Shown in pieces: positions 21,247 to 45,721 of a DNA stretch of 64,000 nt. The notes below the pieces were generated by a model. The model saw only the letters and a list, made by a program, of their open reading frames with translations. It was not told where the DNA came from and did no database searches. The DNA is from Bacteroidota bacterium (GTDB lineage Bacteria; Bacteroidota; Bacteroidia; 2-12-FULL-35-15). The stretch lies in assembly GCA_947449315.1 (NCBI GenBank), contig CANFRC010000005.1, forward strand, positions 62,001 to 126,000, read 5' to 3'. Each line of letters opens with the position of its first letter. Positions within the stretch are counted from its first letter, which is position 1. Position numbers and translations under genes: made by a program.

Positions 21247-22299
21247 TTATCTTTTAACGTATTGGGTTTCGTAATATTTTTTATAATCACCTGAAGTAAC
21301 ATTGCTTAGCCAAGCTTCATTATTTAAATACCAGTCAACGGTTTTGGTCAATCCTTCTTCAAATTGCAAAGAGGGTACCCATCCCAATTCTTTTTGAAGT
21401 TTTGAAGAATCAATAGCATATCGGTGATCATGTCCTGCGCGATCTTTTACATATGTAATCAGTTTTGCAGATTCTCCTTCAGCACGATTTAGTTTTTTAT
21501 CCATGATTTTGCAAAGCAAATGTATTAGATCAATATTTGTCCATTCATTGTGACCACCAATATTGTAGGTGGTTCCTGTTTTTGCCTGATGATATATAAC
21601 GTCTATTGCACGAGCATGGTCTTCTACCCACAGCCAGTCACGAATGTTTTCACCAGTTCCATAAATTGGAATCGATTTGTTGTTTTTGATGTTGTGAATG
21701 GAGAGCGGGATTAATTTTTCAGGAAAATGATGACTTCCGTAATTGTTGGAACAATTTGAAATAACTGCATCAATTCCATACGTGTCGTGATAAGCCCTTA
21801 CAAAATGATCGGAACTTGCTTTTGACGCGGAATAAGGACTGTGTGGGTCGTATGCTGTTGTTTCTGTAAACATGCCCGTTTCACCCAGAGAGCCATATAC
21901 TTCATCGGTAGAAACATGGTAAAATCGATGAGCAGAAAAATTTTCTTTCCATTGATTTTTTGCGGCATTTAATAAATTAACAGTGCCGATAACATTCGTC
22001 ATTACAAACTCCAGAGGGTTTGAAATGCTTCTATCAACGTGGCTTTCTGCTGCAAGATGAATCACACCATCCAATTTGTGCAATGTGAAAAGTTCATTTA
22101 CGAAATCTGCATCCACGATATCTCCTTTCACAAAAGTGTAGTTGGGCTTATCTTGAATATCTTTTAAGTTGGCAAGATTACCTGCGTAGGTTAATTTGTC
22201 TAGATTGACAATGTGATAATTCGGATATTTAGTTACAAATAGTCTGACAACGTGAGAGCCAATGAAGCCTGCGCCGCCTGTTATCAATATCTTTTTCAT
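21247..22299 (-). CDS. rfbB: dTDP-glucose 4,6-dehydratase
   Basis: Converts dTDP-glucose to dTDP-4-keto-6-deoxyglucose. I place the start at 22299 (MKKILITGGAGFIGSH): there the ATG shares one base with the stop of the upstream dehydrogenase (TAATG), whereas the longer frame from 22311 only adds four residues. Motifs: GGAGFIG near the N-terminus, the DVDRSI/HVDRSISNP region, the catalytic YHVSTDEVYGSLGE with Thr-Asp-Glu, and YSASKASSDH with Tyr-x3-Lys. About 350 residues, as expected. RmlA, RmlC and RmlD are absent here, so the end product cannot be assigned to rhamnose. Confidence 0.93.
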   Translation of the reverse strand: MKKILITGGAGFIGSHVVRLFVTKYPNYHIVNLDKLTYAGNLANLKDIQDKPNYTFVKGDIVDADFVNELFTLHKLDGVIHLAAESHVDRSISNPLEFVMTNVIGTVNLLNAAKNQWKENFSAHRFYHVSTDEVYGSLGETGMFTETTAYDPHSPYSASKASSDHFVRAYHDTYGIDAVISNCSNNYGSHHFPEKLIPLSIHNIKNNKSIPIYGTGENIRDWLWVEDHARAIDVIYHQAKTGTTYNIGGHNEWTNIDLIHLLCKIMDKKLNRAEGESAKLITYVKDRAGHDHRYAIDSSKLQKELGWVPSLQFEEGLTKTVDWYLNNEAWLSNVTSGDYKKYYETQYVKR

Positions 22300-23588: not shown

Positions 23589-23592
23589 AATC

Positions 23593-24648: not shown

Positions 24649-25223
24649 TTTATTTTTTTTACAACTCCATTATCGAGTTTGTACATCTCATTACTTTCAA
24701 AGCAAACAGCTATTCCTTCTTTGTCGAATTGTAATCGGTGTCCGTATTCACTGATCCATCCCATTTGTTTTGCTGGGTTTCCTACCCACAATGAATAAGG
24801 CTGAACATGTTTAGTAACAACAGCTCCAGCTCCAATGAACGCATATTCACCAATATCATGTCCGCAAACGATTGTTGCATTTGCACCAATCGATGCACCT
24901 TTACCAACATGCGTTTTTGCATATTCGCTTTTTCTGTTAATAGCACTTCTCGGATTAATTACATTGGTAAAAACCATGGATGGTCCAAGAAATACATCGT
25001 CATCGCAAGTTACTCCCGTGTAGATAGAAACATTGTTTTGTACTTTCACATTTTTGCCTAGCACTACCTCTGGAGATATGACAACATTTTGTCCGATATT
25101 GCAATTTTCTCCAATAGTACAATTGGGCATTATATGAGAGAAATGCCAGATCTTAACACCATTGGCAATTTTACAACCCTCATCAATGATTGCAGTTTCG
25201 TGACTAAAATATTCTTTGCTCAT
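24645..25223 (-). CDS. WbpD-like UDP-aminosugar N-acetyltransferase
   Basis: 192-residue left-handed beta-helix acyltransferase with hexapeptide repeats from about residue 30 (IGENCNIGQNVVISPEVVLG) to 145 (IGEYAFIGAGAVV). The order FLGPSMVFTNVINPRS, then VGKGASIGANATIVCGHDIG with the catalytic His, follows WbpD, which acetylates the 3-amino group of UDP-GlcNAc3NA. It lies between the WbpB-like gene (4-bp ATGA overlap) and the UDP-xylose synthase gene (stop of the latter adjoins this start at 25223), so coupling is tight. Confidence 0.88.
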   Translation of the reverse strand: MSKEYFSHETAIIDEGCKIANGVKIWHFSHIMPNCTIGENCNIGQNVVISPEVVLGKNVKVQNNVSIYTGVTCDDDVFLGPSMVFTNVINPRSAINRKSEYAKTHVGKGASIGANATIVCGHDIGEYAFIGAGAVVTKHVQPYSLWVGNPAKQMGWISEYGHRLQFDKEGIAVCFESNEMYKLDNGVVKKIK

Positions 25224-26194
25224 TAATTAAAATTTCTGTGTTCGGTTTTATTTAATTCTTCTTGCGAAAGCGATTTGAAATAGTCGTACGTAATTTTCAA
25301 TCCTTCTGCACGGTCTACTTTGGGTTCCCAACCTAAAATTTCTTTTGCTTTTGTGATGTCCGGCTTTCTTTGTTTTGGATCGTCTTGTGGCAATGGTTTT
25401 GAAATTAATTTTTGTTTTGTTCCTGTTAATTTAATAATTTCTTCACCAAACTCTTTGATTGTTATTTCACTTGGATTACCAATGTTCACTGGCTGAGAAT
25501 AATTACTCATCAATAATCGATAAATACCCTCTACAAGATCATCCACATAACAAAATGATCGTGTTTGAGAACCGTCACCAAACATGGTTAAATCTTCACC
25601 ACGCAATGCTTGTCCAATAAAAGCGGGTAATACGCGTCCGTCATTCAGTCGCATACGAGGACCATACGTGTTGAAGATGCGTATGATTCGTGTTTCCAAA
25701 CCATGATATGTATGATATGCCATGGTTATTGCTTCCATGAATCGCTTTGCTTCATCATACACACCTCTTGGACCAACAGGGTTTACATTGCCCCAATATT
25801 CTTCAGTTTGTGGATGAACCATTGGATCGCCATATACTTCAGAAGTGGATGCTACCAATATTCTTGCTTTTTTTACACGAGCCAATCCAAGTAAATTGTG
25901 GGTTCCAAGCGAACTCACTTTTAATGTTTGAATTGGAATTTTTAAATAATCGATTGGAGAAGCGGGAGAAGCAAAATGTAAAATGTAATCCAGTTCACCT
26001 GGTACGAATACAAATTTTGAAACATCATGATGGTAGAATTCAAAATGTTCCAGCTTCATTAAATGCTCAATATTTTTTAAATCTCCTGTGATAAGATTAT
26101 CCATTGCAATTACATGGTAACCTTCTTTTATGAAGCGATCACAAAGATGTGAGCCTAAAAAGCCTGCTGCTCCTGTTATTAAGATTCTTTTCAT
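25223..26194 (-). CDS. uxs: UDP-glucuronate decarboxylase (UDP-xylose synthase)
   Basis: Extended SDR, 323 residues, converting UDP-glucuronic acid to UDP-xylose with internal NAD+ recycling. Motifs: [17 protein letters not shown] at the start, [20 protein letters not shown] (a UXS hallmark), [10 protein letters not shown] with the active-site Thr/Ser, [11 protein letters not shown] with Tyr-x3-Lys, and [20 protein letters not shown]. Its substrate is made by the ugd gene 76 bp upstream. The product is a xylose donor for a surface glycan. Confidence 0.93.
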
Positions 26195-26270
26195 AGTTTG
26201 TCAAATAAGTTAAGTATGTTAAAGGAGTATAGCTTAGGCACCTAAAAATTTCATCCTCTCTTTTTGCTAA

Positions 26271-27584
26271 TTAACCTTTTACAGTTTCTCTTCCAATACT
26301 TGTGTAATAATAGCCCATCTCTTTCATTTGATCGATCGCATATAAATTTCTTCCATCAAAAATTGCTTTGTTTTTTAATAGAGAAGAAACTTTTCCGAAA
26401 TCTGGGGTACGAAATAAACTCCACTCCGTTGCAATCAATAAAGCATCTGCATCTCGCAATGCATCGTATTCATCCAATGCATAAGCGATACGGTTGCCCA
26501 TTATGTTTTTTACATTGTTCATAGCTTCCGGATCGTATGCAGAGACGCTCGCTCCTTCTTTCAGTAATTCTTCAATTATGTAAAGGGCTGGTGCTTCGCG
26601 AATATCGTCTGTGTCAGGTTTAAATGCTAAGCCCCATATTGCAATTTTTTTTCCTTTTAGATCTCCTTTGAAATAATCTTTCACTTTAGGAATGATAATG
26701 GTTTTTTGTTTCTCATTAATATCCATTACAGCTTCCAGCATTTTGAAATTGTATGTTACTTCTGCAGCAGATTTCGCCAAGGCTTGAACATCTTTAGGGA
26801 AACAACTTCCGCCATAGCCAATTCCTGGAAATAAAAACCGTTTTCCTATTCTGTCATCTGATCCTATTCCAATGCGAACAGCATCCACATCTGCGCCCAA
26901 TTTCTCGCATAAGTTTGCAATTTCATTCATGAAAGTGATCTTCGTTGCTAAGAAAGCATTGGCAGCATATTTGGTTAATTCAGCCGATTTCTCATCCATA
27001 AAAATGATCGGATTTCCTTGGCGCACGTATGGTTTGTAAAGTTCTTCCATTGTTTTTCTGGCCTTCTCAGAGCTTGTGCCAATCACCACACGGTCAGGTT
27101 TTAAAAAATCATCAACAGCAAATCCTTCGCGTAAAAATTCAGGGTTAGAAACGATATCAAATTCTACTTTTGCATGTTTAGCAACTGCTGCGCGCACTTT
27201 TTCAGCCGTGCCAACAGGAACAGTGCTTTTGTCAACAATTACTTTGTAATCTTTTATGATTTTCCCCAGATCGTTTGCTACGCCCAAGATATAGCTAAGG
27301 TCTGCTGAGCCATCTTCACCTGGAGGAGTTGGTAAAGCAAGAAATATTATTTTTGCGTTTTCAATTGCTTGAGTTAGGTCAGTTGTAAAAGTTAATCTTC
27401 CTTGTTTGATATTACGTTGAAATAGAACATCCAAGTGTGGTTCGTAAATCGGAACAATACCTGCTTGCATTTTATTTACTTTAACGTTATCGATATCGAC
27501 ACAGATGACATGATTGCCTGTTTCTGCTAAACATGTTCCTGTTACCAATCCCACATATCCTGTACCTACAACCGCTATATTCAT
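26271..27584 (-). CDS. ugd: UDP-glucose 6-dehydrogenase
   Basis: Oxidises UDP-glucose to UDP-glucuronic acid. 437 residues with VVGTGYVGLVTGTCLAETGN at the N-terminus, DKSTVPVGTAEKVR, EFLREGFAVDDFLKPDR, and the catalytic Cys in GIGYGGSCFPKDVQAL; the end GLAFKPDTDDIREAP is standard. It feeds the adjacent uxs gene. Of the two UDP-sugar dehydrogenases in the operon, this one has the canonical glucose-type active site. Confidence 0.95.
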   Translation of the reverse strand: MNIAVVGTGYVGLVTGTCLAETGNHVICVDIDNVKVNKMQAGIVPIYEPHLDVLFQRNIKQGRLTFTTDLTQAIENAKIIFLALPTPPGEDGSADLSYILGVANDLGKIIKDYKVIVDKSTVPVGTAEKVRAAVAKHAKVEFDIVSNPEFLREGFAVDDFLKPDRVVIGTSSEKARKTMEELYKPYVRQGNPIIFMDEKSAELTKYAANAFLATKITFMNEIANLCEKLGADVDAVRIGIGSDDRIGKRFLFPGIGYGGSCFPKDVQALAKSAAEVTYNFKMLEAVMDINEKQKTIIIPKVKDYFKGDLKGKKIAIWGLAFKPDTDDIREAPALYIIEELLKEGASVSAYDPEAMNNVKNIMGNRIAYALDEYDALRDADALLIATEWSLFRTPDFGKVSSLLKNKAIFDGRNLYAIDQMKEMGYYYTSIGRETVKG

Positions 27585-27638
27585 ATTGTCAATTTTGAAA
27601 TTTGAAAATTAGTTAATGAGCTAGTTTTAAAAATAATA

Positions 27639-28778
27639 TTATTTGCAAAAGTCTAAAACAGAATCAGTAATATATTTTAATGTTTCTTCGTCCAATTCTG
27701 TATGCATAGGCAATGACATTACGGATGCACAAAGTTTTTCTGTTACAGGGAAATCACCTGCTTTGTAGCGTGAATCTAAATATGCTTTTTGTAAATGCAA
27801 TGGAATAGGGTAGTAAATCATTGCCGGTATGTCTTTGCTAGCTAGAAAATCACGCAGTGCTGTTCTGTCAACTCCATTTAATTGAAGTGTGTACTGATGG
27901 AAAACGTGATTAGAGAATTTAGCGCGCGCGGGTGTTATTAATTTGGGATGATTTGCAAATGCTTTGTCGTAATACGTTGCTGCTTTATTTCTTGCAGCCG
28001 CATAATGATCTAGGTCGCGTAATTTGATTCTCAAAATAGCGGCCTGAATACTGTCCAGGCGTGAATTTACGCCAATAGAATCATGAATGTATTGTGCGGA
28101 TTGCCCATGATTTGCGATGATTCTGATCTTAGTGGCAAGTGTATCATCGTTAGTGAATATGGCTCCGCCGTCACCATAACAGCCCAGATTTTTCGATGGA
28201 AAAAATGAGGTGCAGCCTATTGTTCCAATAGTTCCTGCTTTTTTCTTTGTTCCGTCTGAAAAAATATATTCTGCGCCAATCGCTTGTGCGGTGTCTTCAA
28301 TAACATATAAATTATGTTTTTTTGCCAATGCCATGATTGCTTCCATGTCGGCACATTGTCCAAACAAATGAACTGGAACAATAGCTTTCGTTTTCGGTGT
28401 AATTGCCTTTTCGATTGCTGCTGTATCAATTTCAAATGTATTTGGAATCACGTCTACTAAAACAGGTTTCAGGCCAAGTAAAGCAATCACTTCTGCAGTT
28501 GCAACATAGGTGAAATCGGCTGTGATAACTTCATCTCCAGGCTTTAAGTCCAAGGCCATCATTGCTATTTGCAATGCATCTGTTCCATTCGCGCAAGGGA
28601 TAACATGCTTGGCTCCTAGATAGTGTTCCAATTCTGTCTGAAATGCTTTCACTTCCGGACCATTAATAAAAGCAGTGTTATTCAATACATTTTGAATCGC
28701 ACTGTCTACTTCAGTTTTTATTTTTTCGTATTGACTTTTTAAGTCAACCATTTGAATTTTTCTGGAAATTTTATCCAT
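27639..28778 (-). CDS. DegT/DnrJ/EryC1 aminotransferase, WbpE-like
   Basis: PLP-dependent sugar aminotransferase, 379 residues. Near residue 60 CANGTDALQIAMMAL binds the cofactor phosphate; VIEDTAQAIGAEY carries the PLP-pairing Asp; the Schiff-base lysine is Lys196 in TSFFPSKNLGCYGDGGA. The surrounding sequence (DVITADFTYVATAE-like, VNSRLDSIQAAIL) follows WbpE, which aminates UDP-3-keto-GlcNAcA. It is the first gene of the nine-gene polysaccharide operon; the 187-bp divergent region in front should contain the operon promoter, though I found no full consensus there. Confidence 0.9.
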   Translation of the reverse strand: MDKISRKIQMVDLKSQYEKIKTEVDSAIQNVLNNTAFINGPEVKAFQTELEHYLGAKHVIPCANGTDALQIAMMALDLKPGDEVITADFTYVATAEVIALLGLKPVLVDVIPNTFEIDTAAIEKAITPKTKAIVPVHLFGQCADMEAIMALAKKHNLYVIEDTAQAIGAEYIFSDGTKKKAGTIGTIGCTSFFPSKNLGCYGDGGAIFTNDDTLATKIRIIANHGQSAQYIHDSIGVNSRLDSIQAAILRIKLRDLDHYAAARNKAATYYDKAFANHPKLITPARAKFSNHVFHQYTLQLNGVDRTALRDFLASKDIPAMIYYPIPLHLQKAYLDSRYKAGDFPVTEKLCASVMSLPMHTELDEETLKYITDSVLDFCK

Positions 28779-31062: not shown

Positions 31063-32514
31063 ATGGAAACTAAAACTACAACAAGTACATCTGCGCTGGT
31101 AACATTAATTTCAGTATTTTTTTTCTGGGGATTTGTTGCAGCAAGTAATGATATCTTAATTCCTGTTTTTAAGGAAAAATTGAATTTAACTCAAGGGCAA
31201 GCGCAACTTATTTCGTTGGCTTTTTATATTGCTTATACGGTTGGTTCAATAATCTATTATATCATTTCTAAAATCATCGGACAGGATATACTTAATCGTA
31301 TAGGTTATAAAAATGGTATCGCTTTGGGCTTAGTTATCTCTGCTTGTGGCACTTTGTTATTTATTCCAGCAGCCAATACTGTTTCGTTTCCTTTAATGAT
31401 CTCTGGTTTATTTACCGTTGCGCTCGGCTTTTCTTTACAGCAAACGGCTGCAAATCCGCTCGCAATAACAATGGGCGATCCTCAAAAAGGCTCACAACGT
31501 TTAAGTTTGGCAGGTGGTGTAAATAATGTGGGGACTACCATAGGTCCTCTTTTATTAAGCTTTGCCATTTTTGGTTCTGTTGCAGTTGCTGGGACTTCCT
31601 CCTTGAGTATCGAAAATATTAAAATTCCTTATTTAATTTTAGGAGCAGCGTTTATTGTAGTAGCCGTTATATTTAAATTCTCATCTATACCCAATAAGAT
31701 TGAATCAGTCAATGATGATTCTTCTGTTGCATCATCAACCAAAAGTGATAGAAAAAGTGCATTAAAATACCCTCAGCTGGTGTTGGGCATGATCGCCATT
31801 TTTGTTTATGTTGGTGTTGAAGTGTCCACCGCAAGTAATCTGCCTGAGTTTATGAAGCAGCATCTGCATACAACCACAGATAAAATAGCTCCATTTATTT
31901 CTTTGTTTTGGGCCAGTCTGATGATTGGTCGTTGGACATCATCTGTAGGTGCATTTAATTTAAATGGAGGAGCAAAAGCGATTATGAAATTTTTAATGCC
32001 CTACATTGCCTTTGCAGTATTTTTAGGTGTGAATAAAATTGCGAATCATGATATTACTCCGTTTTATATTTATGCATTTGTGATTATTGCTTTAATTATC
32101 GGAGATATGTTAAGTAAAGGAAATCCTGCCCGCCAATTATTATTGTATTCGTTTTTAGGAATAGCTGCATTAATGATTGGAATGTTATCCGATGGGATGG
32201 TTAGTGTATATGCGTTTATCTCAGTTGGTTTGTTTTGTAGTACATTATGGCCTTGTATTTATACCTTAGCTATTGCTGGTTTAGGAAGACATACCAATGA
32301 AGGGTCCAGTTTTTTAATTATGATGATCATGGGTGGTGGAATTATCAGTTATACCCAAGGCACGTTGTCTTCCGACAGTATGTTGGGAATTCAATGGAGT
32401 TATTTAGTGGGTGTGGCTTGCTTTGCTTATTTAGCATTCTACGCATGGAAAGTAAGTGCAATATTAAAATCACAAGGAATTGATTACGATGCAACAACTG
32501 GTAGCGGGCATTGA
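31063..32514 (+). CDS. Sugar MFS transporter (FucP/GluP/NagP type)
   Basis: 12-helix proton-linked sugar importer of the FGHS family, 483 residues. The helix-1 pattern TLISVFFFWGFVAASNDILIP, YxIGSxIY-like helix 2, and the helix-4 segment LGFSLQQTAANPLAITMG are typical of FucP-related permeases, which in Bacteroidota carry glucose, galactose, fucose or N-acetylglucosamine. The cluster it heads releases GlcNAc and mannose, so one of these is the likely cargo. Overlaps the kinase gene downstream by 26 bp. Confidence 0.88.
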   Translation: METKTTTSTSALVTLISVFFFWGFVAASNDILIPVFKEKLNLTQGQAQLISLAFYIAYTVGSIIYYIISKIIGQDILNRIGYKNGIALGLVISACGTLLFIPAANTVSFPLMISGLFTVALGFSLQQTAANPLAITMGDPQKGSQRLSLAGGVNNVGTTIGPLLLSFAIFGSVAVAGTSSLSIENIKIPYLILGAAFIVVAVIFKFSSIPNKIESVNDDSSVASSTKSDRKSALKYPQLVLGMIAIFVYVGVEVSTASNLPEFMKQHLHTTTDKIAPFISLFWASLMIGRWTSSVGAFNLNGGAKAIMKFLMPYIAFAVFLGVNKIANHDITPFYIYAFVIIALIIGDMLSKGNPARQLLLYSFLGIAALMIGMLSDGMVSVYAFISVGLFCSTLWPCIYTLAIAGLGRHTNEGSSFLIMMIMGGGIISYTQGTLSSDSMLGIQWSYLVGVACFAYLAFYAWKVSAILKSQGIDYDATTGSGH

Positions 32515-33445
32515 TATTGGTGGTACAAACACCGTATTCGGATTGGTGGATGAAAAGGGCAATATACTTTTGAAAGAAAGTGTTGCTACCGAACATTTTC
32601 CTATTCCTGAAGATTTAGTTGCTGTTGTATGTGAACGCATCAAAAAATCCGTCGCGGCATTTTCTCATAAATATAATTTTGTTGGAGTAGGTATTGGAGC
32701 TCCAAATGGAAATTATTTTAAGGGAACAATTGAATTTGCACCCAATTTAAAATGGGAAGGAATTGTTCCTCTCGCAAAACTATTCTCTGAAAGATTAAAT
32801 GTAAAAGCTGTTTTAACAAATGATGCAAATGCTGCAGCCATTGGTGAAATGGTGTTTGGTGGCGCCAAAGGCATGAAAGACTTTCTTTTCATCACACTTG
32901 GTACAGGCCTAGGAAGCGGAATTGTTGCAAATGGTGAACTCATTTTAGGGCACGATAGTTTTGCCGGTGAGATTGGCCATGTAATACTTTTTCCTGATGG
33001 AAGACAATGCGGCTGTGGTAGAAAAGGATGTTTGGAGACCTATTGCTCGGCAACAGGAATCAAAAGAACATACTCCGATTTGTTGATGCGTCACCCTGAA
33101 AAAAACAATTTGTCGGGTAAGGTTGCAGATGCCAAATATATTTATGATAAAGCTGTACAGGGTGATACAGAAGCATTAGAAGCATTTAATTACACGGGAG
33201 ATGTGTTGGGGTTGGCATTGGCTAATAGTGTAGCTTATACGAGTCCTGAAGCAATCTTTTTATTTGGTGGGTTAGCCTTAGCGGGTGATTTTATTTTTAA
33301 GCCAACCATTGAAAGTTTCGAACGAAATTTATTGAACATCTATAAAAATAAAATAAAAATTCTTCCATCGCAATTAAAAGAAAATGATGCAGCCATTCTG
33401 GGTGCTGCTTCTTTAATCTTGAAAGAATTAAATGAATTCATCTGA
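32489..33445 (+). CDS. ROK-family sugar kinase
   Basis: Phosphorylates an imported hexose (glucose, GlcNAc or mannose type; not decidable here). From the ATG at 32489 (MQQLVAGIDIGGTN) the product has 318 residues; a frame from 32480 adds three. It contains the ATP phosphate loop GIDIGGTNTVFGLVDEKG, the catalytic Asp in LTNDANAAAIGE, and the ROK zinc site CGCGRKGCLETYCSATG after the zinc His in EIGHVILF. It overlaps the permease gene by 26 bp, so uptake and phosphorylation are linked. Confidence 0.92.
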   Translation: MQQLVAGIDIGGTNTVFGLVDEKGNILLKESVATEHFPIPEDLVAVVCERIKKSVAAFSHKYNFVGVGIGAPNGNYFKGTIEFAPNLKWEGIVPLAKLFSERLNVKAVLTNDANAAAIGEMVFGGAKGMKDFLFITLGTGLGSGIVANGELILGHDSFAGEIGHVILFPDGRQCGCGRKGCLETYCSATGIKRTYSDLLMRHPEKNNLSGKVADAKYIYDKAVQGDTEALEAFNYTGDVLGLALANSVAYTSPEAIFLFGGLALAGDFIFKPTIESFERNLLNIYKNKIKILPSQLKENDAAILGAASLILKELNEFI

Positions 33446-33519
33446 GAAGAAAATAAAAATAAATAGTTACACATAATTACAGTACAGCAGTTAGATATCA
33501 ATTTAGATAAATTATTACG

Positions 33520-35151
33520 ATGAAAAAAATATGTTTAGTAATTGGTATTTTAATTTCTTCCGCTTTATTTGCTCAGGAAAAAATGCCAGTAACACCATTA
33601 GGGTTAATTCCCTTGCCTAATAAGGTAGTGCAGAGCAATGGCGAATTCAAACTCACGAAAGAGACCAAAATAGTGTTGATGAATAGCTCATTCGAGCTTG
33701 AGGTGAGTTATCTGAATTCATATTTAAAAACAAATTATGATCTGGAATTGCAAGTTGTATCTGTTTTACCTTCGGATGGAAACTATATGATTATTACGGA
33801 GCCAGAAGTTAAAGTGGGGCAGCTTGAAAATTATAGTTTAAATGTAAATCAGAATCAGATTTTATTTTCGGCAGAAGGGAATGCTGGTCTTTTTTATAGC
33901 ATGCAAACATTGTTACAGTTGTTGCCATTACAAAAATCTGCAGAAGTGAAAATCCCCTGTGTTCAGATCAAAGATTCTCCAAGATATGCTTGGCGTGGGA
34001 TGCATTTGGATTGTAGTCGACATTTTTTTACAAAAGAAGAAGTCAAAAAATACATTGATTATTTAGCGATGTATAAATTCAATGTTTTTCATTGGCATCT
34101 GGTGGATGATCAGGGCTGGAGAATTGAAATTAAAAAATATCCATTATTGACGAAGATTGGTTCCCAACGAAAAGAAACAATCATAGGGAAACCTGCATTC
34201 AATAAAGATGGAACACCTTCAAAAGATGATAAGTACGATGGAATAGCTTATGGAGGGTTTTATACGCAGGAAGATATAAAAGAAGTAGTAGCGTATGCAA
34301 AAAGTAAATACATAACCGTAGTGCCTGAAATTGAAATGCCGGGACATTCATTGGCTGCATTAGCTGCCTATCCTAACTATTCGTGTACAGGTGGTCCCTT
34401 TGAAACATTCACTAAATGGGGCGTTTCGGATGATGTGTATTGTGCAGGGAATGATTCGACATTTTTATTTTTAGAGAATATTCTTTCTGAAGTAATGGAT
34501 CTGTTCCCAGGAAAATACATTCATATTGGTGGCGATGAATGTTTAAAAGACCGATGGAAAGTTTGTCCGAAATGTCAAAAACGGATTGCCGATGAAAAGC
34601 TCAAAGATGAAAGTGAATTACAAAGTTATTTTATTACACGTATTGAGAAATATGTGAATTCAAAAGGAAAACAAATTATTGGCTGGGATGAAATTTTAGA
34701 AGGTGGGTTGGCTCCAAATGCGGCTCTGATGAGTTGGAGAGGCACTGAAGGTGGTATTGCTGCTGCTCAACAAAAACATTTTGTTGTCATGACACCTGGA
34801 AAGCCATGTTATTTTGATCATTACCAATCAAAAGACAAAACCAAGGAACCCCTTGCCATAGGTGGCTTTAATCCCTTGGCTGCTGTGTATGCATATAACC
34901 CAACACCTCAAGCCCTTTTAGAGGATGAATCAAAATATATAATGGGTGCGCAAGGGAATGTTTGGACAGAATACATTACAGATTTTGCAAAGGTTCAGTA
35001 CATGTCTATGCCACGAATGGCTGCATTATCAGAAGTATTATGGACGCTACCTGAAAAAAAGAATTACAAAGATTTTCTTATGCGTTTAAAAATTCATACT
35101 AAAACATTGGATAAAATGGGAGTGAATTATTCGAAACAATTTTTGAAATAA
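33520..35151 (+). CDS. Beta-N-acetylhexosaminidase, GH20
   Basis: Exported enzyme, 543 residues, that removes terminal beta-linked GlcNAc or GalNAc. Signal peptide MKKICLVIGILISSALFAQ. An N-terminal GH20b-type domain (about 25-150) precedes the catalytic barrel beginning SPRYAWRGMHLDCSRHF. The substrate-assisted catalytic pair is Asp339-Glu340 in HIGGDECLKDRW; HWHLVDDQGWRIEI and PEIEMPGHSLAAL are further family blocks. Within this locus it would trim antenna or core GlcNAc of N-glycans. Confidence 0.94.
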   Translation: MKKICLVIGILISSALFAQEKMPVTPLGLIPLPNKVVQSNGEFKLTKETKIVLMNSSFELEVSYLNSYLKTNYDLELQVVSVLPSDGNYMIITEPEVKVGQLENYSLNVNQNQILFSAEGNAGLFYSMQTLLQLLPLQKSAEVKIPCVQIKDSPRYAWRGMHLDCSRHFFTKEEVKKYIDYLAMYKFNVFHWHLVDDQGWRIEIKKYPLLTKIGSQRKETIIGKPAFNKDGTPSKDDKYDGIAYGGFYTQEDIKEVVAYAKSKYITVVPEIEMPGHSLAALAAYPNYSCTGGPFETFTKWGVSDDVYCAGNDSTFLFLENILSEVMDLFPGKYIHIGGDECLKDRWKVCPKCQKRIADEKLKDESELQSYFITRIEKYVNSKGKQIIGWDEILEGGLAPNAALMSWRGTEGGIAAAQQKHFVVMTPGKPCYFDHYQSKDKTKEPLAIGGFNPLAAVYAYNPTPQALLEDESKYIMGAQGNVWTEYITDFAKVQYMSMPRMAALSEVLWTLPEKKNYKDFLMRLKIHTKTLDKMGVNYSKQFLK

Positions 35152-35165
35152 ACAAATTTGCTCAT

Positions 35166-36164
35166 ATGACAACGAGACGTGATTTTATAAAAACATCTGC
35201 TTTTGCTTCGGCCGCACTATTGGTTTCCAATTCGGATGCAAATTCCCTCGTAAAGGAGGTGATGCTGAAAAAGGATAGTGTAAAGCCAATTGTATTATCC
35301 ACCTGGAATTTTGGATTAAAAGCAAACGAAGCTGCGTGGCAAGTATTAAGTAATAACGGTAACGCATTGGATGCAGTGGAGGCGGGTGTTAAAATTCCGG
35401 AAGGTGATCCAACTGAACGAAGTGTTGGATATGGAGGACGTCCGGATAGAGATGGCAGGGTTACTCTTGATGCGTGCATCATGGATGAAAATGCAAATAT
35501 TGGTTCTGTGGCATGTTTAGAATTTATAAAACATCCTATTTCAGTAGCAAGGGCGGTGATGGAAAAAACACCACACGTGATGTTGGTTGGTGATGGCGCT
35601 TTGCAGTTTGCATTATCCCAAGGGTTTATGAAAGAGAATTTATTGGTTGAAGATTCTGAAAAGGAATGGAAAGAATGGTTGAAAACGAGCAATTACAAAC
35701 CAATTGTAAATATAGAAAATCATGATACAATCGGAATGATCGCTATGGATGCAGCGGGTAATTTATCTGGTGCATGTACCACAAGTGGAATGGCTTATAA
35801 GATGCATGGCAGAGTTGGCGACTCACCTATTATCGGAGCCGGTTTGTATGTTGATAACGAAATTGGAGCTGCAACAGCAACAGGTCATGGTGAAGAAGTA
35901 ATACGTATAGCTGGATGTCATTTGGTGGTTGAATTGATGCGCCAAGGGAATTCTCCTGATCAAGCCTGCAGAATAGCTGTAGATAGAGTCGTGAAATTGA
36001 CTGCTAATAGAAAAAAAAATCTGAAAGATATTCAAGTTGGTTTTATTGCCTTAAATAAAAACGGCGAATACGGTTCATATTGTGTTCAAAGCGGATTTAA
36101 TTATGCCGTGCATGATAACACAGGGAATCGTTTAATCAATGCAGAATTTCATTTGAAAGTCTAA
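35166..36164 (+). CDS. N4-(beta-N-acetylglucosaminyl)-L-asparaginase (glycosylasparaginase)
   Basis: Ntn-hydrolase that splits GlcNAc from asparagine, the last bond of an N-glycan. 332 residues. The precursor cuts itself before the nucleophile Thr188 in NHDTIGMIAMD; other family parts are TWNFG near residue 46, VGYGGRPDRDGRVTLDACIM, GRVGDSPIIGAGLY and TGHGEEVIR. The N-terminus has a twin-arginine motif (TTRRDFIKTSAFASAALLV), so it is probably exported folded by Tat. It starts 14 bp after the GH20 gene. Confidence 0.94.
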   Translation: MTTRRDFIKTSAFASAALLVSNSDANSLVKEVMLKKDSVKPIVLSTWNFGLKANEAAWQVLSNNGNALDAVEAGVKIPEGDPTERSVGYGGRPDRDGRVTLDACIMDENANIGSVACLEFIKHPISVARAVMEKTPHVMLVGDGALQFALSQGFMKENLLVEDSEKEWKEWLKTSNYKPIVNIENHDTIGMIAMDAAGNLSGACTTSGMAYKMHGRVGDSPIIGAGLYVDNEIGAATATGHGEEVIRIAGCHLVVELMRQGNSPDQACRIAVDRVVKLTANRKKNLKDIQVGFIALNKNGEYGSYCVQSGFNYAVHDNTGNRLINAEFHLKV

Positions 36165-36240
36165 TCGATTCATACATGATCTGGAATAGCCTCTCTTTTT
36201 CTAAAGGAGAATTGCACGATGAAAATAGTAGTAAAATATC

Positions 36241-36912
36241 ATGAACAACCACAAACTCGAAATAGCCTGCTTTAATCTCGAATCAGCATTAATTGCTCAA
36301 GAAGGTGGTGCAGACAGGATTGAGTTATGCGATGACTTTTCTCTGGGTGGTGTTACGCCTAATTATGGCACAGTTGAAACGGCTCGAAAATTAATTGCGA
36401 TTGATTTGTTTGTGATGATTCGTCCTCGTGGTGGAAATTTTATCTATACAAGGGATGAATTTGAGCAAATGAAAAAAGACATTCTTCATTTCAAAGACAT
36501 GAAAGTGAATGGTTTTGTTTTCGGAATATTGAACGATGGTGGAAGCGTTAATAAAGAACAAAATAAGACATTGGTTGAATTGGCGAAACCTTTTCCGTGT
36601 ACTTTTCATCGTGCATTTGATGTTTCACAAAATCTTAGCAAGAATATAGAAGATGTTATTGCGTGTGGATTTAAAACCATTCTAACTTCTGGACAAACAA
36701 AATCTGCAATGGATGGCATTTCTCAATTATCAGCATTGGTCAACTATTCAAATGGAAGAATATCCATTATGCCGGGAGGTGGAGTTCGCTCCTCCAATAT
36801 TTCTTTATTGAAAGAAAAAGTGAACACTTCTTTTTATCATTCATCTGCCATCATAAAAAATAATCTTGCAGATTTGAATGAAGTTAAATTGCTTAAGCAG
36901 AAATTGGGATGA
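36241..36912 (+). CDS. cutC: CutC-family TIM-barrel protein
   Basis: 223 residues of the CutC family (PF03932), with LEIACFNLESALIAQEGGAD, RIELCDDFSLGGVTPNYG, VMIRPRGGNF, FHRAFDVSQN, ILTSGQTKSAMDG and MPGGGVRSSN. The name comes from a copper-sensitivity phenotype in E. coli; the biochemical reaction is unknown and the fold is that of sugar-phosphate and amino-acid enzymes. There is no signal peptide and it is probably cytosolic. Here it sits between glycosylasparaginase and beta-mannosidase and overlaps the latter by 4 bp (ATGA), which points to a part in using N-glycan products rather than in copper control; that is inference. Confidence 0.9.
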   Translation: MNNHKLEIACFNLESALIAQEGGADRIELCDDFSLGGVTPNYGTVETARKLIAIDLFVMIRPRGGNFIYTRDEFEQMKKDILHFKDMKVNGFVFGILNDGGSVNKEQNKTLVELAKPFPCTFHRAFDVSQNLSKNIEDVIACGFKTILTSGQTKSAMDGISQLSALVNYSNGRISIMPGGGVRSSNISLLKEKVNTSFYHSSAIIKNNLADLNEVKLLKQKLG

Positions 36913-39482
36913 AAGTGAATGTTGTAACCTATTTTATTTTTTTGATGCTTTCGTTTGCTTCGTATTCGCAATCTATGAATAGGGTTCCGATTGAAAGAAG
37001 TTTAAATTCATCATCTACTTGGAAATTTAAAAAGAAAGGCGAAGCAATCTGGCATTCGGCAAGGGTTCCCGGGACGGTTCATACAGATCTTTTCAACAAT
37101 AAATTAATCCCTGACCCATTTTTTGGTAACAATGAAAAACAATTACAATGGATCGAGAATGAAAGTTGGGAATACAGCACTTCTGTTAGGATCACTCAAA
37201 AAGAAATGGCGCAATCTCATATAGAGTTGCAATTTGATGGATTGGATACCTACGCAAAAGTGTATGTAAACGATTCATTAATTATTACTGCTGACAATAT
37301 GTTTCGCCGATGGAATGTGGATGTAAAAAAATACTTACACAAAGGCGAAAATAAATTATACATTCTTTTTGAATCTGCCGTAATAAAAGGAAAAGAAGAA
37401 GCAAAAAAAATACCTTATACGTTGCCCGGAGATGAAAAAGTGTTTGCTCGAAAAGCGCAATATCAATATGGGTGGGATTGGGGTCCACGCTTTGTGACTT
37501 GCGGTATTTGGAAAAGTGTAAAATTGATCGAGTGGAGTGGATTGAAAGTAAATTCAGTTCATTTTATTCAGGATTCGATCAGTAAAAATGAAGCACGTGT
37601 ACGATTCGAATTTGATATAAGTAGTGATGTGGATACTAAAGTGGATATATCTGCGAACTACGTTATTTCTTTTCCAGGTGGGAACACAGCAAGAATTAAT
37701 GAAGCTCCTGTTGTTCTGAAAAAAGGCGATAATCAGGTTGTTCTTCATTGTATAATAGAAGAGCCTAAATTGTGGTGGTGCAACGGCTTAGGGAAGCAGA
37801 ATTTATATCCAATTACACTTAAAATAAAAGAAGGTGATCGTGTTTGCTACCATGGAATAAAGACCATCGGCTTGAGAACAATAGAGCTTATTCAAGATAA
37901 AGACAGCATTGGTGCATCTTTTTATTTTAAATTGAATGGAGTTCCTGTTTTCATGAAAGGAGCCAATTATATTCCATCGGATAATTTTTTACCTCGTATG
38001 CAAAAAGAGGATTATAAAAAGTGTGTTAAAAATGCAGTTGAAGTTAACATGAATATGTTGCGGGTGTGGGGTGGAGGCGTTTATGCCGATGATGAATTTT
38101 ATAATCAATGTGATGAACAGGGGATTTTAGTGTGGCAGGATTTTATGTTTGCTTGCGCCATGTATCCCGGCGATAATCATTTTGTGAATAATGTTGCGCA
38201 AGAAGTGATTGATCAGGTTGATCGTTTGAGGAATCATCCTTCTTTGGCTTTATGGTGTGGAAATAATGAAGTGGATGAAGGATGGAAAAATTGGGAATGG
38301 CAAAAACAGTATCACTACTCTGAAAAAGATTCTTCAACCATTTATCAGAACAATTCCATTTTATTCAATGATTTTATAAAAGAAATAGTCAATCAGCAAG
38401 ACGGGGTTCGAAATTATTGGCCATCATCTCCATCAATCGGTTGGGGGCATCCAGAAAGTTTACAACAGGGAGATTCACATTATTGGGGCGTTTGGTGGGG
38501 AGGTGAATCATTTGAAAATTACAATAGTAAAGTTGGAAGGTTTGTTAGTGAATATGGATTTCAGGGAATGCCCGATGTCACGACTTTTAAAAAGGCAGGT
38601 ATTGTTGGTTCTGAAAAGAAAGGAATATCAAAAATTGATTCAGTGAATTATTTTGCGCATCAGAAAAATACAAATGGTTATGATATAATCAATACGTATA
38701 TGAAACGCGATTATGTTGTTCCAAAAAAATTTGATGATTACAGTTATGTTTCGCAACTATTACAGGCAGAAGGTATGAAAACTGCAATAGAGGCTCATAG
38801 AAGGGCGAAGCCGTATTGCATGGGATCCATGTATTGGCAATTGAATGATTGTTGGCCTGTGACTTCCTGGAGCTCTGTAGATTATTATGGAAATTGGAAA
38901 GCATCCCATTTTCAAGTCAGAAGGAGTTACAAAAATGTACTGATAGCTGTTGCACAAAAAAACGAACAACTACAGATATATATTATCAATGACGGGTTGG
39001 ATTCTTTGAATCAGGAATTGATGATTTCATTGATGAATTTTAAGGGAGAAACATTGTGGACAAAGAAAAGAGTTTTGGTAATTCGTCCGAACAGCTCCAA
39101 TATTTATGATTCTGTTTCAAAAGCGGAGTTTCAAAAATATGATCCTCAACAAGTATTTTTATCATTGACCTTAGTAAAGACAAGCTCACTGGAGGAGATA
39201 AATGAGTTGTATTATTTTGTTAAACCCAAAGATCTCCAATTGCAACCTTCTAAAATTAATTACAACCTAACGTTTGATCACGAAAAGCAAGCTATTGTTC
39301 TTTCTTCAGACGTACTTGCGAAAGATGTTTGTATTCAGATAGAAGGAACAAACGTAAATTTGTCTGATAATTATTTTGATATTTTACCACACCAACAAAA
39401 AGTAATTTATTTACCTGCTGGTAAATACATTCCAGATCTTCTAAAAAAAATAAAAATAAAATCATTGATTGATACATATTGA
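36909..39482 (+). CDS. Beta-mannosidase, GH2
   Basis: Exported exo-beta-mannosidase, 857 residues, suited to the single beta-mannose of the N-glycan core. Signal peptide ends near SFASYSQS. Then a GH2 sugar-binding domain, an immunoglobulin-like domain, and the catalytic barrel (from about residue 330). The acid/base is Glu454 in LWCGNNEVDEGW and the nucleophile Glu548 in VSEYGFQGMP; RVWGGGVYADDEFY is another beta-mannosidase block. Its start overlaps the cutC stop and its end is 1 bp from the GH92 start, so the three genes are tightly coupled. Confidence 0.93.
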   Translation: MKVNVVTYFIFLMLSFASYSQSMNRVPIERSLNSSSTWKFKKKGEAIWHSARVPGTVHTDLFNNKLIPDPFFGNNEKQLQWIENESWEYSTSVRITQKEMAQSHIELQFDGLDTYAKVYVNDSLIITADNMFRRWNVDVKKYLHKGENKLYILFESAVIKGKEEAKKIPYTLPGDEKVFARKAQYQYGWDWGPRFVTCGIWKSVKLIEWSGLKVNSVHFIQDSISKNEARVRFEFDISSDVDTKVDISANYVISFPGGNTARINEAPVVLKKGDNQVVLHCIIEEPKLWWCNGLGKQNLYPITLKIKEGDRVCYHGIKTIGLRTIELIQDKDSIGASFYFKLNGVPVFMKGANYIPSDNFLPRMQKEDYKKCVKNAVEVNMNMLRVWGGGVYADDEFYNQCDEQGILVWQDFMFACAMYPGDNHFVNNVAQEVIDQVDRLRNHPSLALWCGNNEVDEGWKNWEWQKQYHYSEKDSSTIYQNNSILFNDFIKEIVNQQDGVRNYWPSSPSIGWGHPESLQQGDSHYWGVWWGGESFENYNSKVGRFVSEYGFQGMPDVTTFKKAGIVGSEKKGISKIDSVNYFAHQKNTNGYDIINTYMKRDYVVPKKFDDYSYVSQLLQAEGMKTAIEAHRRAKPYCMGSMYWQLNDCWPVTSWSSVDYYGNWKASHFQVRRSYKNVLIAVAQKNEQLQIYIINDGLDSLNQELMISLMNFKGETLWTKKRVLVIRPNSSNIYDSVSKAEFQKYDPQQVFLSLTLVKTSSLEEINELYYFVKPKDLQLQPSKINYNLTFDHEKQAIVLSSDVLAKDVCIQIEGTNVNLSDNYFDILPHQQKVIYLPAGKYIPDLLKKIKIKSLIDTY

Positions 39483-39483
39483 A

Positions 39484-42387
39484 ATGAGAAAGTTATTCTT
39501 TATTCCGCTTTTATTAGTCTTGTGCGCATGCACAGCTCAACAATTTAACTATGTTCAATATGTCGACCCTATGGTTGGCACAGGTGGTCATGGACATACG
39601 TTTCCGGGCGCGACTGTTCCATTTGGAATGGTTCAGCTTTCTCCCGATACGCGTATTGATGGTAGCTGGGATGGATGTAGTGGCTATCATTATAGTGATT
39701 CAATAGTTTATGGTTTCTCTCACACCCATTTGAGTGGAACGGGCTGCAGTGATTATGGAGATATTTTGTTATTTCCAACATCCGAAGAAATTACATCAAC
39801 AGATTTTCTGCACCATACATATTCTACTTCATTCAAACACAAAAATGAAAAAGCGAGCGCAGGATATTATTCAGTTAAATTGGATAACGGTGTAAATGTT
39901 GAATTAACAGCAACTACACGTGTTGGTTTTCACAAATATACGTTTACAAATAAGGCAGCTCCTTGGATCATTCTTGATTTGTCTCACAGAGATAAAACCC
40001 TGGAGGCTTCCTTTAAAGAAGTGAGTAATACTGAAATTGAAGGGATGAGAAGGAGTGAGGCATGGGCAAAGGATCAGCACATCTATTTTGTTGCAAAATT
40101 TTCCGAACCTTTTGTTGAATCAAAGAATTTAGAAACGGGAGGTTTGAATATCATCAATCGGCACGCCTTTAAATTTTCTAACCAGAGTAAATCCATTTAT
40201 GTAAAAGTTGGAATATCTACTGTTAGTATTGAAGGAGCTAGAAAAAATTTGGAAGCAGAACTACCGGAATGGGATTTTGAAAAAACGAAGCAAGTGGCGG
40301 AAGAGATGTGGAATAAAGAATTAAGTAAAATAGAAGTGGTGTCTTCAGATAAAGAAAAAATGAAAATTTTTTATACCGCTTTGTACCATACCCTAATTCA
40401 ACCAAATGTTGCAATGGATGTAGATGGAATGTATAGAGGACGTGATAATAAGATTCATCAGGCGGAAGGATTTACCTATTATTCTGTTTTTTCGTTGTGG
40501 GATACTTTTCGTGCAGCACATCCATTGTACACGTTGATTGATCAAAAGCGCACTTCCGATTATATCAATACTTTTTTAGCACAATACGAGCAAGGTGGCC
40601 GATTACCTGTTTGGGAACTTGCAAGCAATGAAACCGATTGTATGATTGGGTATCATTCGGTCAGCGTTATTGCCGATGCAATGGTGAAAGGTATAAAAGG
40701 TTTTGATTACGAAAAGGCATTTGAAGCAAGTAAACACAGTGCCATGTTGGATCATTTAGGATTAAAAGCATACAAACAAAATGGCTTTATTAGTATGGAT
40801 GATGAGCCGGAGAGTGTTTCTAAAACATTAGAATATGCCTATGATGATTGGTGTATTGCCCAGATGGCAAAGGTTTTGAACAAAAATTCAGATTACGATT
40901 ACTTTATGAAACGTTCGCAATCGTGGAAAAATCTTTTTGATCAGAAGACTGGTTTCATGCGCCCTAAGAAAAATGGAGGATGGTTGGAGCCATTTGAGCC
41001 GCGTGAAGTCAATAATAATTTTACGGAAGGAAATTCCTGGCAATATACTTTTTTTGTCCCTCAGGATGTAACAGGATTAATTGCAATGATGGGAGGAAAT
41101 GATATGTTCGAGAAAAAGCTGGACGAACTTTTCACCACTTCTAGTCAAACTACAGGCCGAGAACAAGCTGATATATCTGGTCTTGTTGGGCAATATGCTC
41201 ATGGTAACGAACCCAGTCATCATATGGCATATCTCTATAATTTTGTAAATAAGCCCCAAAAGACGCAATACCGAATTCATCAAATAATGAATGAATTTTA
41301 TAAAGCAGCGCCTGATGGTTTAATAGGGAATGAAGATTGTGGCCAAATGAGTGCATGGTATGTTTTAAATGCAATAGGCTTGTATTCAGTCATTCCGGGT
41401 GGAGGGAATTTTGAATTCGGAACGCCTGTTTTTAATCATGTTAAAATTCATTTAGAAAATGCTAAAATTTTTGAGATCGATGCTTCTGATTTATCTAACA
41501 CTCATTTTTATGTCCAGAAGTATGTCTTGAATGGTGTTCCGCTTCGTGGGCTATCTGCCAGTTATCAGTCACTGATGTTGGGTGGGGTTCTTTCTTTGAA
41601 AATGTCGGGTACACCTTCCGATGATGTATCTGATACTACATTTTCTTCACCCATTAAAAGCGCTGATCTTATTTTGCCCGTCCCAACAATCAATGCAAAA
41701 TCTCGTGTTTTTGATGATAGCCTGCTAATCACATTGAGTGCTGGTTCTTCTAAAGATAATATAGTGTATTCCTGCAGCGATAGCGCTACCCAACCGCTGG
41801 AATTTGTTCCCTATCGTAAGTCGTTCACCATCCAAAAATCTAAAACGGTTGTTGCTTACATTGATAATAAAAATATGAAAAGCGATACGGTTTCAGGCTC
41901 TTTTTATAAACGCCCGAATCATTGGGTCATAAAAATAAATTCTAATTACAATCCTCAATATACAGCTGGTGGCGACGAAGGAATTATTGACGGTTTGCGT
42001 GGCGATGTCAATTGGAGGAAAGGAGAATGGCAAGGCTATCAATCGCAAGATTTTGAAGCGATTGTCGATTTTGGAAAAAAGATACCTGTGCATTTTTTCA
42101 GCGCAGGTTTTTTGCAGGATTCACGCTCGTGGATTTTGATGCCTGTTAGAGTGGAATATTACACATCATCAGATAATGTGAACTATACGCTTGTTGAAAC
42201 AGTTGAAAATACAGTAAAACCAGACGATTACATAACTCAAATAAAAGAATTTGCTGCAACGCATTCAAAGCCAATAAATGCACGATATGTGAAAGTGAAG
42301 GCATACAATTTCGGAAAACTTCCCGAAGGGCACCAGGGTGCAGGTGGCGATGCCTTTCTATTTGTCGATGAAATAAACGTTCGTTAG
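39484..42387 (+). CDS. GH92 alpha-mannosidase lipoprotein with C-terminal discoidin-type module
   Basis: Ca2+-dependent exo-alpha-mannosidase, 967 residues from the ATG at 39484 (an in-frame start at 39469 overlaps the previous gene). Lipobox LCAC at residues 13-16 makes it a lipoprotein. GH92 blocks: DPMVGTGGHGHTFPGATVPF, GFSHTHLSGTGCSDYGD, GNEPSHHMAYLYNF and NEDCGQMSAWYVLNAIGLYS, which hold calcium and catalytic residues. After residue 740 comes a beta-sandwich (chitobiase C-terminal-like) and then a discoidin/F5-8C carbohydrate-binding module. It removes alpha-mannose from high-mannose glycans and is last in the locus. Confidence 0.94.
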   Translation: MRKLFFIPLLLVLCACTAQQFNYVQYVDPMVGTGGHGHTFPGATVPFGMVQLSPDTRIDGSWDGCSGYHYSDSIVYGFSHTHLSGTGCSDYGDILLFPTSEEITSTDFLHHTYSTSFKHKNEKASAGYYSVKLDNGVNVELTATTRVGFHKYTFTNKAAPWIILDLSHRDKTLEASFKEVSNTEIEGMRRSEAWAKDQHIYFVAKFSEPFVESKNLETGGLNIINRHAFKFSNQSKSIYVKVGISTVSIEGARKNLEAELPEWDFEKTKQVAEEMWNKELSKIEVVSSDKEKMKIFYTALYHTLIQPNVAMDVDGMYRGRDNKIHQAEGFTYYSVFSLWDTFRAAHPLYTLIDQKRTSDYINTFLAQYEQGGRLPVWELASNETDCMIGYHSVSVIADAMVKGIKGFDYEKAFEASKHSAMLDHLGLKAYKQNGFISMDDEPESVSKTLEYAYDDWCIAQMAKVLNKNSDYDYFMKRSQSWKNLFDQKTGFMRPKKNGGWLEPFEPREVNNNFTEGNSWQYTFFVPQDVTGLIAMMGGNDMFEKKLDELFTTSSQTTGREQADISGLVGQYAHGNEPSHHMAYLYNFVNKPQKTQYRIHQIMNEFYKAAPDGLIGNEDCGQMSAWYVLNAIGLYSVIPGGGNFEFGTPVFNHVKIHLENAKIFEIDASDLSNTHFYVQKYVLNGVPLRGLSASYQSLMLGGVLSLKMSGTPSDDVSDTTFSSPIKSADLILPVPTINAKSRVFDDSLLITLSAGSSKDNIVYSCSDSATQPLEFVPYRKSFTIQKSKTVVAYIDNKNMKSDTVSGSFYKRPNHWVIKINSNYNPQYTAGGDEGIIDGLRGDVNWRKGEWQGYQSQDFEAIVDFGKKIPVHFFSAGFLQDSRSWILMPVRVEYYTSSDNVNYTLVETVENTVKPDDYITQIKEFAATHSKPINARYVKVKAYNFGKLPEGHQGAGGDAFLFVDEINVR

Positions 42388-44680: not shown

Positions 44681-45721
44681 ATGAAAAACGTTAAATTTAT
44701 TACTACTCTTTTCTTGCTCATTACTGCGGGCTTATTTGCTCAAGCGCCACAAGCATTCAAGTATCAGGGGATTGCGCGCGATGCTTCAGGAAATCCAATG
44801 GCGAGTGCATCACTATCGGTGCGTGTAACAATACACAATGTTTCTGCAGCGGGAACAACACTTTATCAAGAAACACAATCAACAACAACAAATACATTTG
44901 GGCTTATGAGCCTTGAGATTGGAAACGGAACCCCAGTATCTGGAACGTTTTCGAGTATTCCTTGGGGTGTTGCTGAAAAATGGTTAGAAGTTGAAGTTGA
45001 TTTCGGATCGGGATATCTTCCAATGGGAACAGCACAATTGTTAAGTGTTCCTTATGCACTTTATGCAGCAAGCGGAACTGCTGGCCCTACAGGAGCTACA
45101 GGTGCAATGGGAGCTACTGGAGCAATCGGTGCTACTGGAGTAACAGGTGCTACTGGAATTACAGGAACAACAGGTGCAACTGGAACGACAGGTGCTACTG
45201 GAACGACAGGTGCTACTGGAACGACAGGTGCAACTGGAACGACAGGTGCTACAGGAGCAACGGGTGCTGTTGGAGCGACAGGAGTAGCTGGAACAGCGGG
45301 ACAAAATTCTACTACTTATTTCACTACTGGAGGCCTTGCATTGACTAGTGCAGTAACAGGGCTTACTTATGTAACTGGTTTTCCTGTTACCATCACTGTT
45401 CCTGCTGGATGTAAAACACTTATTTCGGCAGACATTGGTGTTGCAGGAACTTCAGCAGCCAATGCAACAGTGGATGCCGTGCTTACAATTGATGGATTTC
45501 CCCCAACAAATGGTGGGTATCAACGTTTGTCTGTTAATAGTGCTGTGCCAGATGGGGTTGCTGTTTTTTCCTTTAGCCAGACCTTTGTGCTTACTGCAGG
45601 AACGCATACTGTTGGAATTGCCGGAGCATGGGTGAGTACAGGTCTTGCTACTGCTACATTAGGCGGTGATAATACTTCTGTATTACAAGGAGAATTAACT
45701 GTCACATTTATTAATCAGTAA
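44681..45721 (+). CDS. Collagen-like repeat surface protein
   Basis: 346 residues. Signal peptide ([16 protein letters not shown]); an N-terminal domain about 22-130 with [19 protein letters not shown] and [14 protein letters not shown], common at the base of Bacteroidota surface fibres; 25 uninterrupted Gly-X-Y triplets at residues 135-209 (GAT, GTT, GVT, GAI and others, Thr-rich); and a C-terminal beta-rich domain of about 135 residues that could be a trimerising head like those of C1q- or BclA-type fibres. It has no T9SS domain. The repeat DNA is a direct 18-bp tandem array. Confidence 0.85.
45164..45253 (+). repeat. Five 18-bp tandem repeats encoding Gly-Thr-Thr-Gly-Ala-Thr
   Basis: Units at 45164, 45182, 45200, 45218 and 45236, consensus GGAACGACAGGTGCTACT. 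Units 2 and 3 are identical; unit 4 differs at one base (GCAACT), unit 5 at its last base and unit 1 at two. Near-identity suggests recent slippage or unequal recombination, so copy number may vary between strains. Confidence 0.9.

Follow-up and report, generated by a model that had tools for sequence, protein, structure and literature searches.

A glycosylasparaginase gene as the recurrent partner of cutC across Bacteroidota suggests that CutC is an enzyme of sugar metabolism

CutC proteins are conserved from bacteria to human and yet have no known reaction, and the copper in their name comes from a phenotype that was later traced to a small RNA. What, then, does a cutC gene contribute when it is found in an operon of glycan-trimming enzymes? 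The question is raised by a stretch of 64,000 nucleotides from a Bacteroidota bacterium (hereafter the window, meaning the whole of the DNA analysed), in which cutC (36241..36912, + strand; PF03932, 4e-63) begins with ATG, encodes a protein of 223 amino acids and belongs to a run of seven genes on the single + strand, in the order MFS–ROK–GH20–AGA–CutC–GH2–GH92, that extends from 31063 to 42387.

All seven genes can be assigned to families. The run opens with a gluP/NagP/fucP-like MFS sugar transporter (31063..32514, +; PF07690, 1.8e-16; NagP, 2e-49), which scores 198 bits against TIGR01272 gluP, slightly below the cut-off of 202.6, and continues with a ROK sugar kinase (32480..33445, +; PF00480, 1.4e-64) whose top NCBIfam match, ROK_glcA_fam, is under its cut-off at 219 bits; the listed start of the kinase gene is TTG, the in-frame ATG at 32489 being likelier. 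There follow a GH20 beta-N-acetylhexosaminidase with a signal peptide (33520..35151, +; PF00728, 9e-120, and PF02838; N-terminus MKKICLVIGILISSALFAQ) and the glycosylasparaginase AGA (Asparaginase_2; 35166..36164, +; PF01112, 1.9e-70), an orthologue of the solved enzyme 3LJQ (E 3e-161). The beta chain of AGA begins at Thr188, the self-cleavage point, matching the solved enzymes, and its Tat-type signal, TTRRDFIK, has counterparts in its relatives, 53 of 57 of which carry a twin-arginine RRxF/L motif. Downstream of cutC lie a GH2 beta-mannosidase-type enzyme with a signal peptide (36909..39482, +; PF22666, 1.4e-63, PF17786 and PF17753) and a GH92 alpha-mannosidase, a likely lipoprotein (39469..42387, +; PF07971, 7e-179, and PF17678; N-terminus MRKLFFIPLLLVLCAC), for which the ATG at 39484 is a likelier start than the listed TTG.

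An earlier note on this DNA had set cutC between the glycosylasparaginase and beta-mannosidase genes and had described an ATGA shared with the latter. Both statements hold: AGA lies 76 bp upstream and GH2 directly downstream, with the stop codon of cutC (36910–36912) and the start codon of the GH2 gene (36909–36911) overlapping in an ATGA at 36909..36912 (+). The same CutC/GH2 gap of −4 recurs at 14 further loci, a few of which may be duplicates of a genome present in two sets. Between AGA and CutC, gaps of −4, −1 and 0 are seen at 10, 13 and 6 loci, respectively. To judge from the sequence, cutC and the GH2 gene are probably translationally coupled. Export signals can be recognised by eye on GH20, AGA, GH2 and GH92; CutC and the ROK kinase are the predicted soluble, cytosolic members of the operon. 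In the case of CutC, this prediction is made because the first strand of the modelled protein begins at residue 5, leaving no export signal, in line with the cytosolic location proposed earlier. Pfam detects no SusC/D, TonB receptor, endoglycosidase or PNGase among the seven genes at 31063–42387, and the operon would therefore cover the closing steps of a glycan route and not all of it; it is not a complete N-glycan utilisation locus of either the PUL or the nix type. Elsewhere in the window, a cell-surface sugar cluster on the − strand (22299–28778) encodes two UDP-sugar dehydrogenases, a GFO/IDH oxidoreductase, a DegT-type aminotransferase and a GDP-mannose-dehydratase-like protein, as in amino-uronic sugar synthesis, and a gene at 44681–45721 (+) encodes a protein with a collagen-like run of G-x-x triplets (GTTGATGTT...).

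By its sequence and predicted fold, the product of the window gene is an ordinary CutC. It matches PF03932 at 213 bits (cut-off 23.3) over residues 5–204, equivalent to positions 2–201 of the 202 in the profile, and the model (pLDDT 97.6, pTM 0.93) is a TIM barrel with its first strand at residues 5–10. The nearest solved folds found with Foldseek are human CutC (3IWP; E 3.9e-27, TM 0.94) and bacterial CutC, followed by MJ1099 (2.8e-8), TrpF (1.3e-7), PdxS (1.5e-7), PdxJ (1.8e-7) and a KDPG-type aldolase. The kinship of the barrel to sugar-phosphate enzymes that had been pointed out before this analysis is thus upheld at the level of the fold; the link to epimerases is not upheld by sequence, where hhalign gave probabilities of 0.7, 8.4, 3.8 and 22% for CutC against TrpF, NanE, PdxJ and HisA, none of them significant in what, with single-sequence templates, is a weak test (the positive control, E. 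coli CutC, gave 100%). Nine residues (E7, R26, E28, G37, T39, G95, D127, L148 and H200) are invariant in 62 CutC sequences and a further nine (C30, R61, R63, E73, H123, R124, S150, G179 and G181) are conserved in at least 90%. Most of these residues lie at or just past the C-terminal ends of the strands of the modelled barrel, the place where barrel enzymes have their active sites. Strand 7 is followed by the conserved G179/G181 and strand 8 carries the conserved H200/S202, positions that by analogy may correspond to those with which related barrels hold phosphate.

The neighbours of cutC were surveyed across Bacteroidota, as the earlier note had advised. Of the 296 Bacteroidota genomes sampled, 92 carry PF03932; so do 18 of 41 relatives, one of these below the family cut-off. 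The loci extended up to 20 kb; counts of AGA come from a six-frame recount of 100 loci and other neighbour frequencies from the 93 loci of a first count. The neighbours prove to be non-random: an AGA orthologue lies near CutC at 56 of the 100 loci, spread over 13 families, where about half a locus would be expected by chance (20 kb of a genome of roughly 4 Mb). AGA is within 1.2 kb of CutC at 54 loci and within 300 bp at 46, and is found upstream on the same strand at 48, upstream on the opposite strand (divergent) at seven and downstream at one. When the ten loci of the window's relatives are dropped, 47 of 90 remain. A second, named set of 80 loci, picked by similarity to the query, gives 60 of 80, with Flavobacterium, Chryseobacterium, Sphingobacterium, Pedobacter, Empedobacter and Chitinophagaceae among those showing the pair. 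The sets share taxa, and probably one genome or more, and are not independent. Clustering of neighbours over the 93 loci recovered AGA at 56, GH2 at 18, GH20 at 15 and GH92 at nine, the remaining recurrent neighbours being lineage-bound housekeeping genes. No GH20, GH2 or GH92 gene lies within 9 kb of 35 of the 55 close AGA–CutC pairs; the conserved partner of CutC is therefore AGA, not the glycosidases, and the pair is the unit.

Loci without AGA were searched for another theme common to them and none was found, the neighbours comprising fabH/argS-type synteny in Flavobacterium, E. coli-like flanks in enterics, Dynamin_N, Rho, SecDF and others. At four such Bacteroidota loci (L117, L112, L121 and L088), a gene that by eye resembles pseudouridine synthases follows CutC, and at L112 an esterase precedes it. 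Separately, long open frames in three genomes (G179, G497 and G546) are possible fusions of AGA or CutC.

The two genes also keep company at the level of whole genomes. With an AGA orthologue defined as a match of at least 285 bits, or as fragments that by eye are clearly similar, 83 of the 296 Bacteroidota genomes have both genes, nine CutC only, 36 AGA only and 168 neither (Fisher 6e-34, relatedness ignored), so that AGA is present in 83 of the 92 CutC genomes. Within the window's genus, all 13 genomes with CutC have an AGA orthologue (at least 74% identity) as against none of the 12 without CutC. Much of this co-occurrence arises because the two genes share a locus and are lost with it, and some genomes are incomplete. 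In two draft genomes of this genus (G300 and G302), CutC and AGA are on separate contigs, being either truly apart or split by contig ends.

Beyond Bacteroidota, 60 of the 299 Pseudomonadota genomes sampled carry PF03932, as do 10 of 80 from the acidobacterial phylum. AGA lies within 300 bp of CutC at five of the 40 Pseudomonadota loci read, three of them (L255, L260 and L262) with a 4-base overlap of the two genes; the surroundings of the others are mostly of the E. coli type. At L252, GH2 and GH92 genes come after CutC, and at two Pseudomonadota loci with no AGA near (L254, 9589–11244, and L267, 9647–11330), CutC directly follows a ROK kinase whose best match is N-acetylglucosamine kinase (NagK-like). 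In an Acidobacteriaceae bin (L225, 2395–11323), CutC is flanked by genes for an outer-membrane barrel protein and a GH38 alpha-mannosidase, the latter after it. In a tree built from 220 CutC proteins, linkage to AGA must have changed at least 24 times. The linked proteins fall in both of its deep halves and in two Pseudomonadota lineages, and are therefore not one specialised subfamily.

Taken with the fold, the AGA pairing suggests that CutC is a sugar-metabolism enzyme. That it is metabolically linked to AGA rather than to copper we consider quite probable. More tentatively, and as the likeliest of the explanations weighed here but one that we would not yet call probable, we propose that CutC, as a TIM-barrel enzyme of the cytosol, acts together with AGA at the last step of glycoprotein-sugar use, turning 1-amino-GlcNAc or its 6-phosphate into a normal sugar. 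In such a route, GH92, GH2 and GH20 would trim the glycan down to GlcNAc-Asn outside the cytosol, where the Tat-exported AGA would cleave it to aspartate and the glycosylamine 1-amino-GlcNAc. Since AGA is exported and CutC is not, an import step must intervene; the MFS carrier and the ROK kinase would import 1-amino-GlcNAc and may phosphorylate it, and CutC would then act on the glycosylamine, free or as the 6-phosphate, to give a normal sugar for the remainder of the pathway. We infer that CutC is an enzyme and that it acts in the cytosol, its putative chemistry being either hydrolysis with release of ammonia or a ring-opening or isomerising step; 1-amino-GlcNAc or its phosphate is a candidate substrate about which we are distinctly doubtful.

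Why such an enzyme might be needed is indicated by work on Lactobacillus casei (PMC6960285), in which 1-amino-GlcNAc is described as not metabolizable and as unstable under acidic conditions, and its breakdown is left to chemistry; an enzyme would therefore benefit a cell at neutral pH. Such a partner would be expected to go with AGA and not with any of the glycosidases. GlcNAc-Asn cannot be the sole context of CutC, however, since the protein is also found without AGA, in nine of the 92 Bacteroidota genomes, and has no AGA near it at 35 of the 40 Pseudomonadota loci, E. coli included; in organisms without AGA, CutC could use other glycosylamines. It also counts against the proposal that 36 genomes have AGA and no CutC, that in L. 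casei, with no CutC named, the AsnA2 pathway is assumed to depend on spontaneous decay, and that sequence profiles tie CutC to no characterised barrel enzyme. A wider form of the proposal would make CutC a glycosylamine enzyme in bacteria and animals alike, clearing the AGA-made 1-amino-GlcNAc (or its phosphate) in the former and the 1-amino-GlcNAc-ended glycans released by cytosolic PNGase (NGLY1) in the latter. We regard this as unlikely; were it true, an orphan family misnamed for copper would belong to glycoprotein turnover.

The earlier note had favoured a cytosolic enzyme in the use of glycan-derived sugar or GlcNAc-Asn products over metal handling. The non-random neighbours, the lack of copper genes, the missing export signal and the sugar-phosphate-like fold all speak for this, but general use of mannose or GlcNAc now appears too unspecific, given how often AGA accompanies CutC with no glycosidase. 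In its general form, this explanation would make CutC an enzyme that epimerises or isomerises, in the cytosol, the sugar phosphates derived from mannose or GlcNAc, the pairing with AGA reflecting no more than a common use of glycans. The fold neighbours are indeed sugar-phosphate barrels, GH2, GH20 and GH92 genes do recur near CutC, and a NagK-like ROK gene adjoins it at L254 and L267. Moreover, the window's genome (G000), which is 99.8% complete, has no match to PF01182 (NagB) and no NagA over the cut-off despite its GlcNAc-releasing operon, and so has a gap in its GlcNAc route. Against this, no glycosidase is nearly as frequent as AGA, most of the close pairs have none of the three glycosidases near them, a PGI/PMI-type gene may cover mannose-6-phosphate isomerase, and a NagB-type gene lies near CutC at L090 and L109, so that CutC is no NagB replacement there. 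We think this explanation rather improbable. Two stand-in roles were also weighed. As a stand-in for mannose-6-phosphate isomerase, CutC would suit a genome from which type I PMI is absent, but the PGI/PMI-type gene is present and the idea was rejected; as a stand-in for NagB, it would suit the absence of that gene here, but the NagB-type genes near CutC elsewhere leave only a weak lead.

We give a similarly low probability to CutC being a general metabolite-repair or housekeeping enzyme that owes its place beside AGA to operon inertia or shared regulation. CutC is widespread beyond the carriers of AGA, structures having been solved for relatives in human, Shigella, Streptococcus and Bacillus, and is unlinked to AGA in enterics, all of which would fit such a role. 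The linkage, however, recurs in 13 families with differing flanks and includes the seven divergent arrangements, and the co-occurrence within the window's genus is perfect. A further reading, which is harder to credit, has CutC work not on the freed sugar but on the amino-acid side, or on a glycosyl-asparagine derivative that has been imported. Its specific partner AGA does yield aspartate besides the sugar, and the pocket contains many Arg, Glu, His and Asp residues; but aspartate, once made by AGA, needs no further special enzyme, and the fold neighbours handle sugar phosphates.

The name of the family leaves the copper question to be settled. No copper gene is found among the Pfam-scanned ORFs of the window, which are a subset, and this agrees with what had been noted earlier. 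Homologues of CopA, CusA, CusF and CueO, searched for with E. coli queries, are found at none of the 100 Bacteroidota loci of up to 20 kb, as compared with 56 for AGA; there is a single CusB-like match. In human CutC, C31 and C52 have been proposed as copper ligands. The position of C52 is C30 in the window protein and is Cys in 92 of 93 sequences; that of C31 is Ala9 and is Cys in only 40 of the 93, so the window CutC lacks one of the two cysteines expected of a copper-homeostasis protein. The copper sensitivity of E. coli cutC mutants has been ascribed entirely to loss of the MicL sRNA (PMC6538781; see also PMC8216713), and the RefSeq name of the E. coli gene is now 'PF03932 family protein CutC'. 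In spite of the family name and the well-kept C30, it is thus extremely improbable that CutC is a copper-homeostasis protein sitting by accident in the operon.

Doubt about a copper role is already in print (PMC6538781) and is not new here, as are the presence of cutC beside nix genes and the MicL origin of the copper phenotype. The phylum-wide pairing with AGA appears to be new: in the open-access literature searched, we found no paper that states it across Bacteroidota or that proposes a reaction. The interest of the result lies in a pairing that is both wide and specific, where a single example had been seen before. For an orphan family conserved in human, it points to a definite pathway, to a few candidate substrates and to suitable hosts for genetic work among environmental laboratory strains that carry the pair, such as Pedobacter cryoconitis (L227) and Flavobacterium glaciei (L162), and it calls into question the annotation of CutC as a copper-resistance or virulence gene (e.g. 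PMC5111406).

Compared with known systems, the window protein matches E. coli CutC, human CUTC (3IWP) and Shigella CutC (1TWD) over its full length, with the same barrel and the same conserved residues, at about 36% identity to the human protein (fold match) and 31% to that of E. coli. Its context differs: E. coli cutC lies between torY and yecM with MicL at its 3′ end, whereas the window gene is accompanied by AGA and glycosidases. The barrels of TrpF, PdxJ, PdxS and MJ1099 are the closest folds after CutC itself (TM, query, about 0.6–0.75) but share only 10–17% identity with it, and profile comparison with E. coli TrpC(F) and PdxJ is not significant. The nix N-glycan cluster of Xanthomonas includes a cutC gene (XAC3091), called a copper-resistance gene by its authors (PMC6718126, PMC5700972), and resembles the window operon in combining CutC with N-glycan genes and, to judge from consecutive locus numbers, with the asparaginase XAC3092 (PMC6718126, PMC5700972); it belongs to another phylum and has a TonB receptor and further glycosidases. 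In the alf-2 cluster of L. casei, which serves the use of fucosyl-GlcNAc-Asn, the MFS transporter AlfH, the glycosylasparaginase AsnA2 and the ROK kinase SugK cooperate on a GlcNAc-Asn compound, much as is proposed here for their counterparts, but AsnA2 is intracellular, the cluster is without CutC and the decay of 1-amino-GlcNAc is assumed to be spontaneous (PMC6960285).
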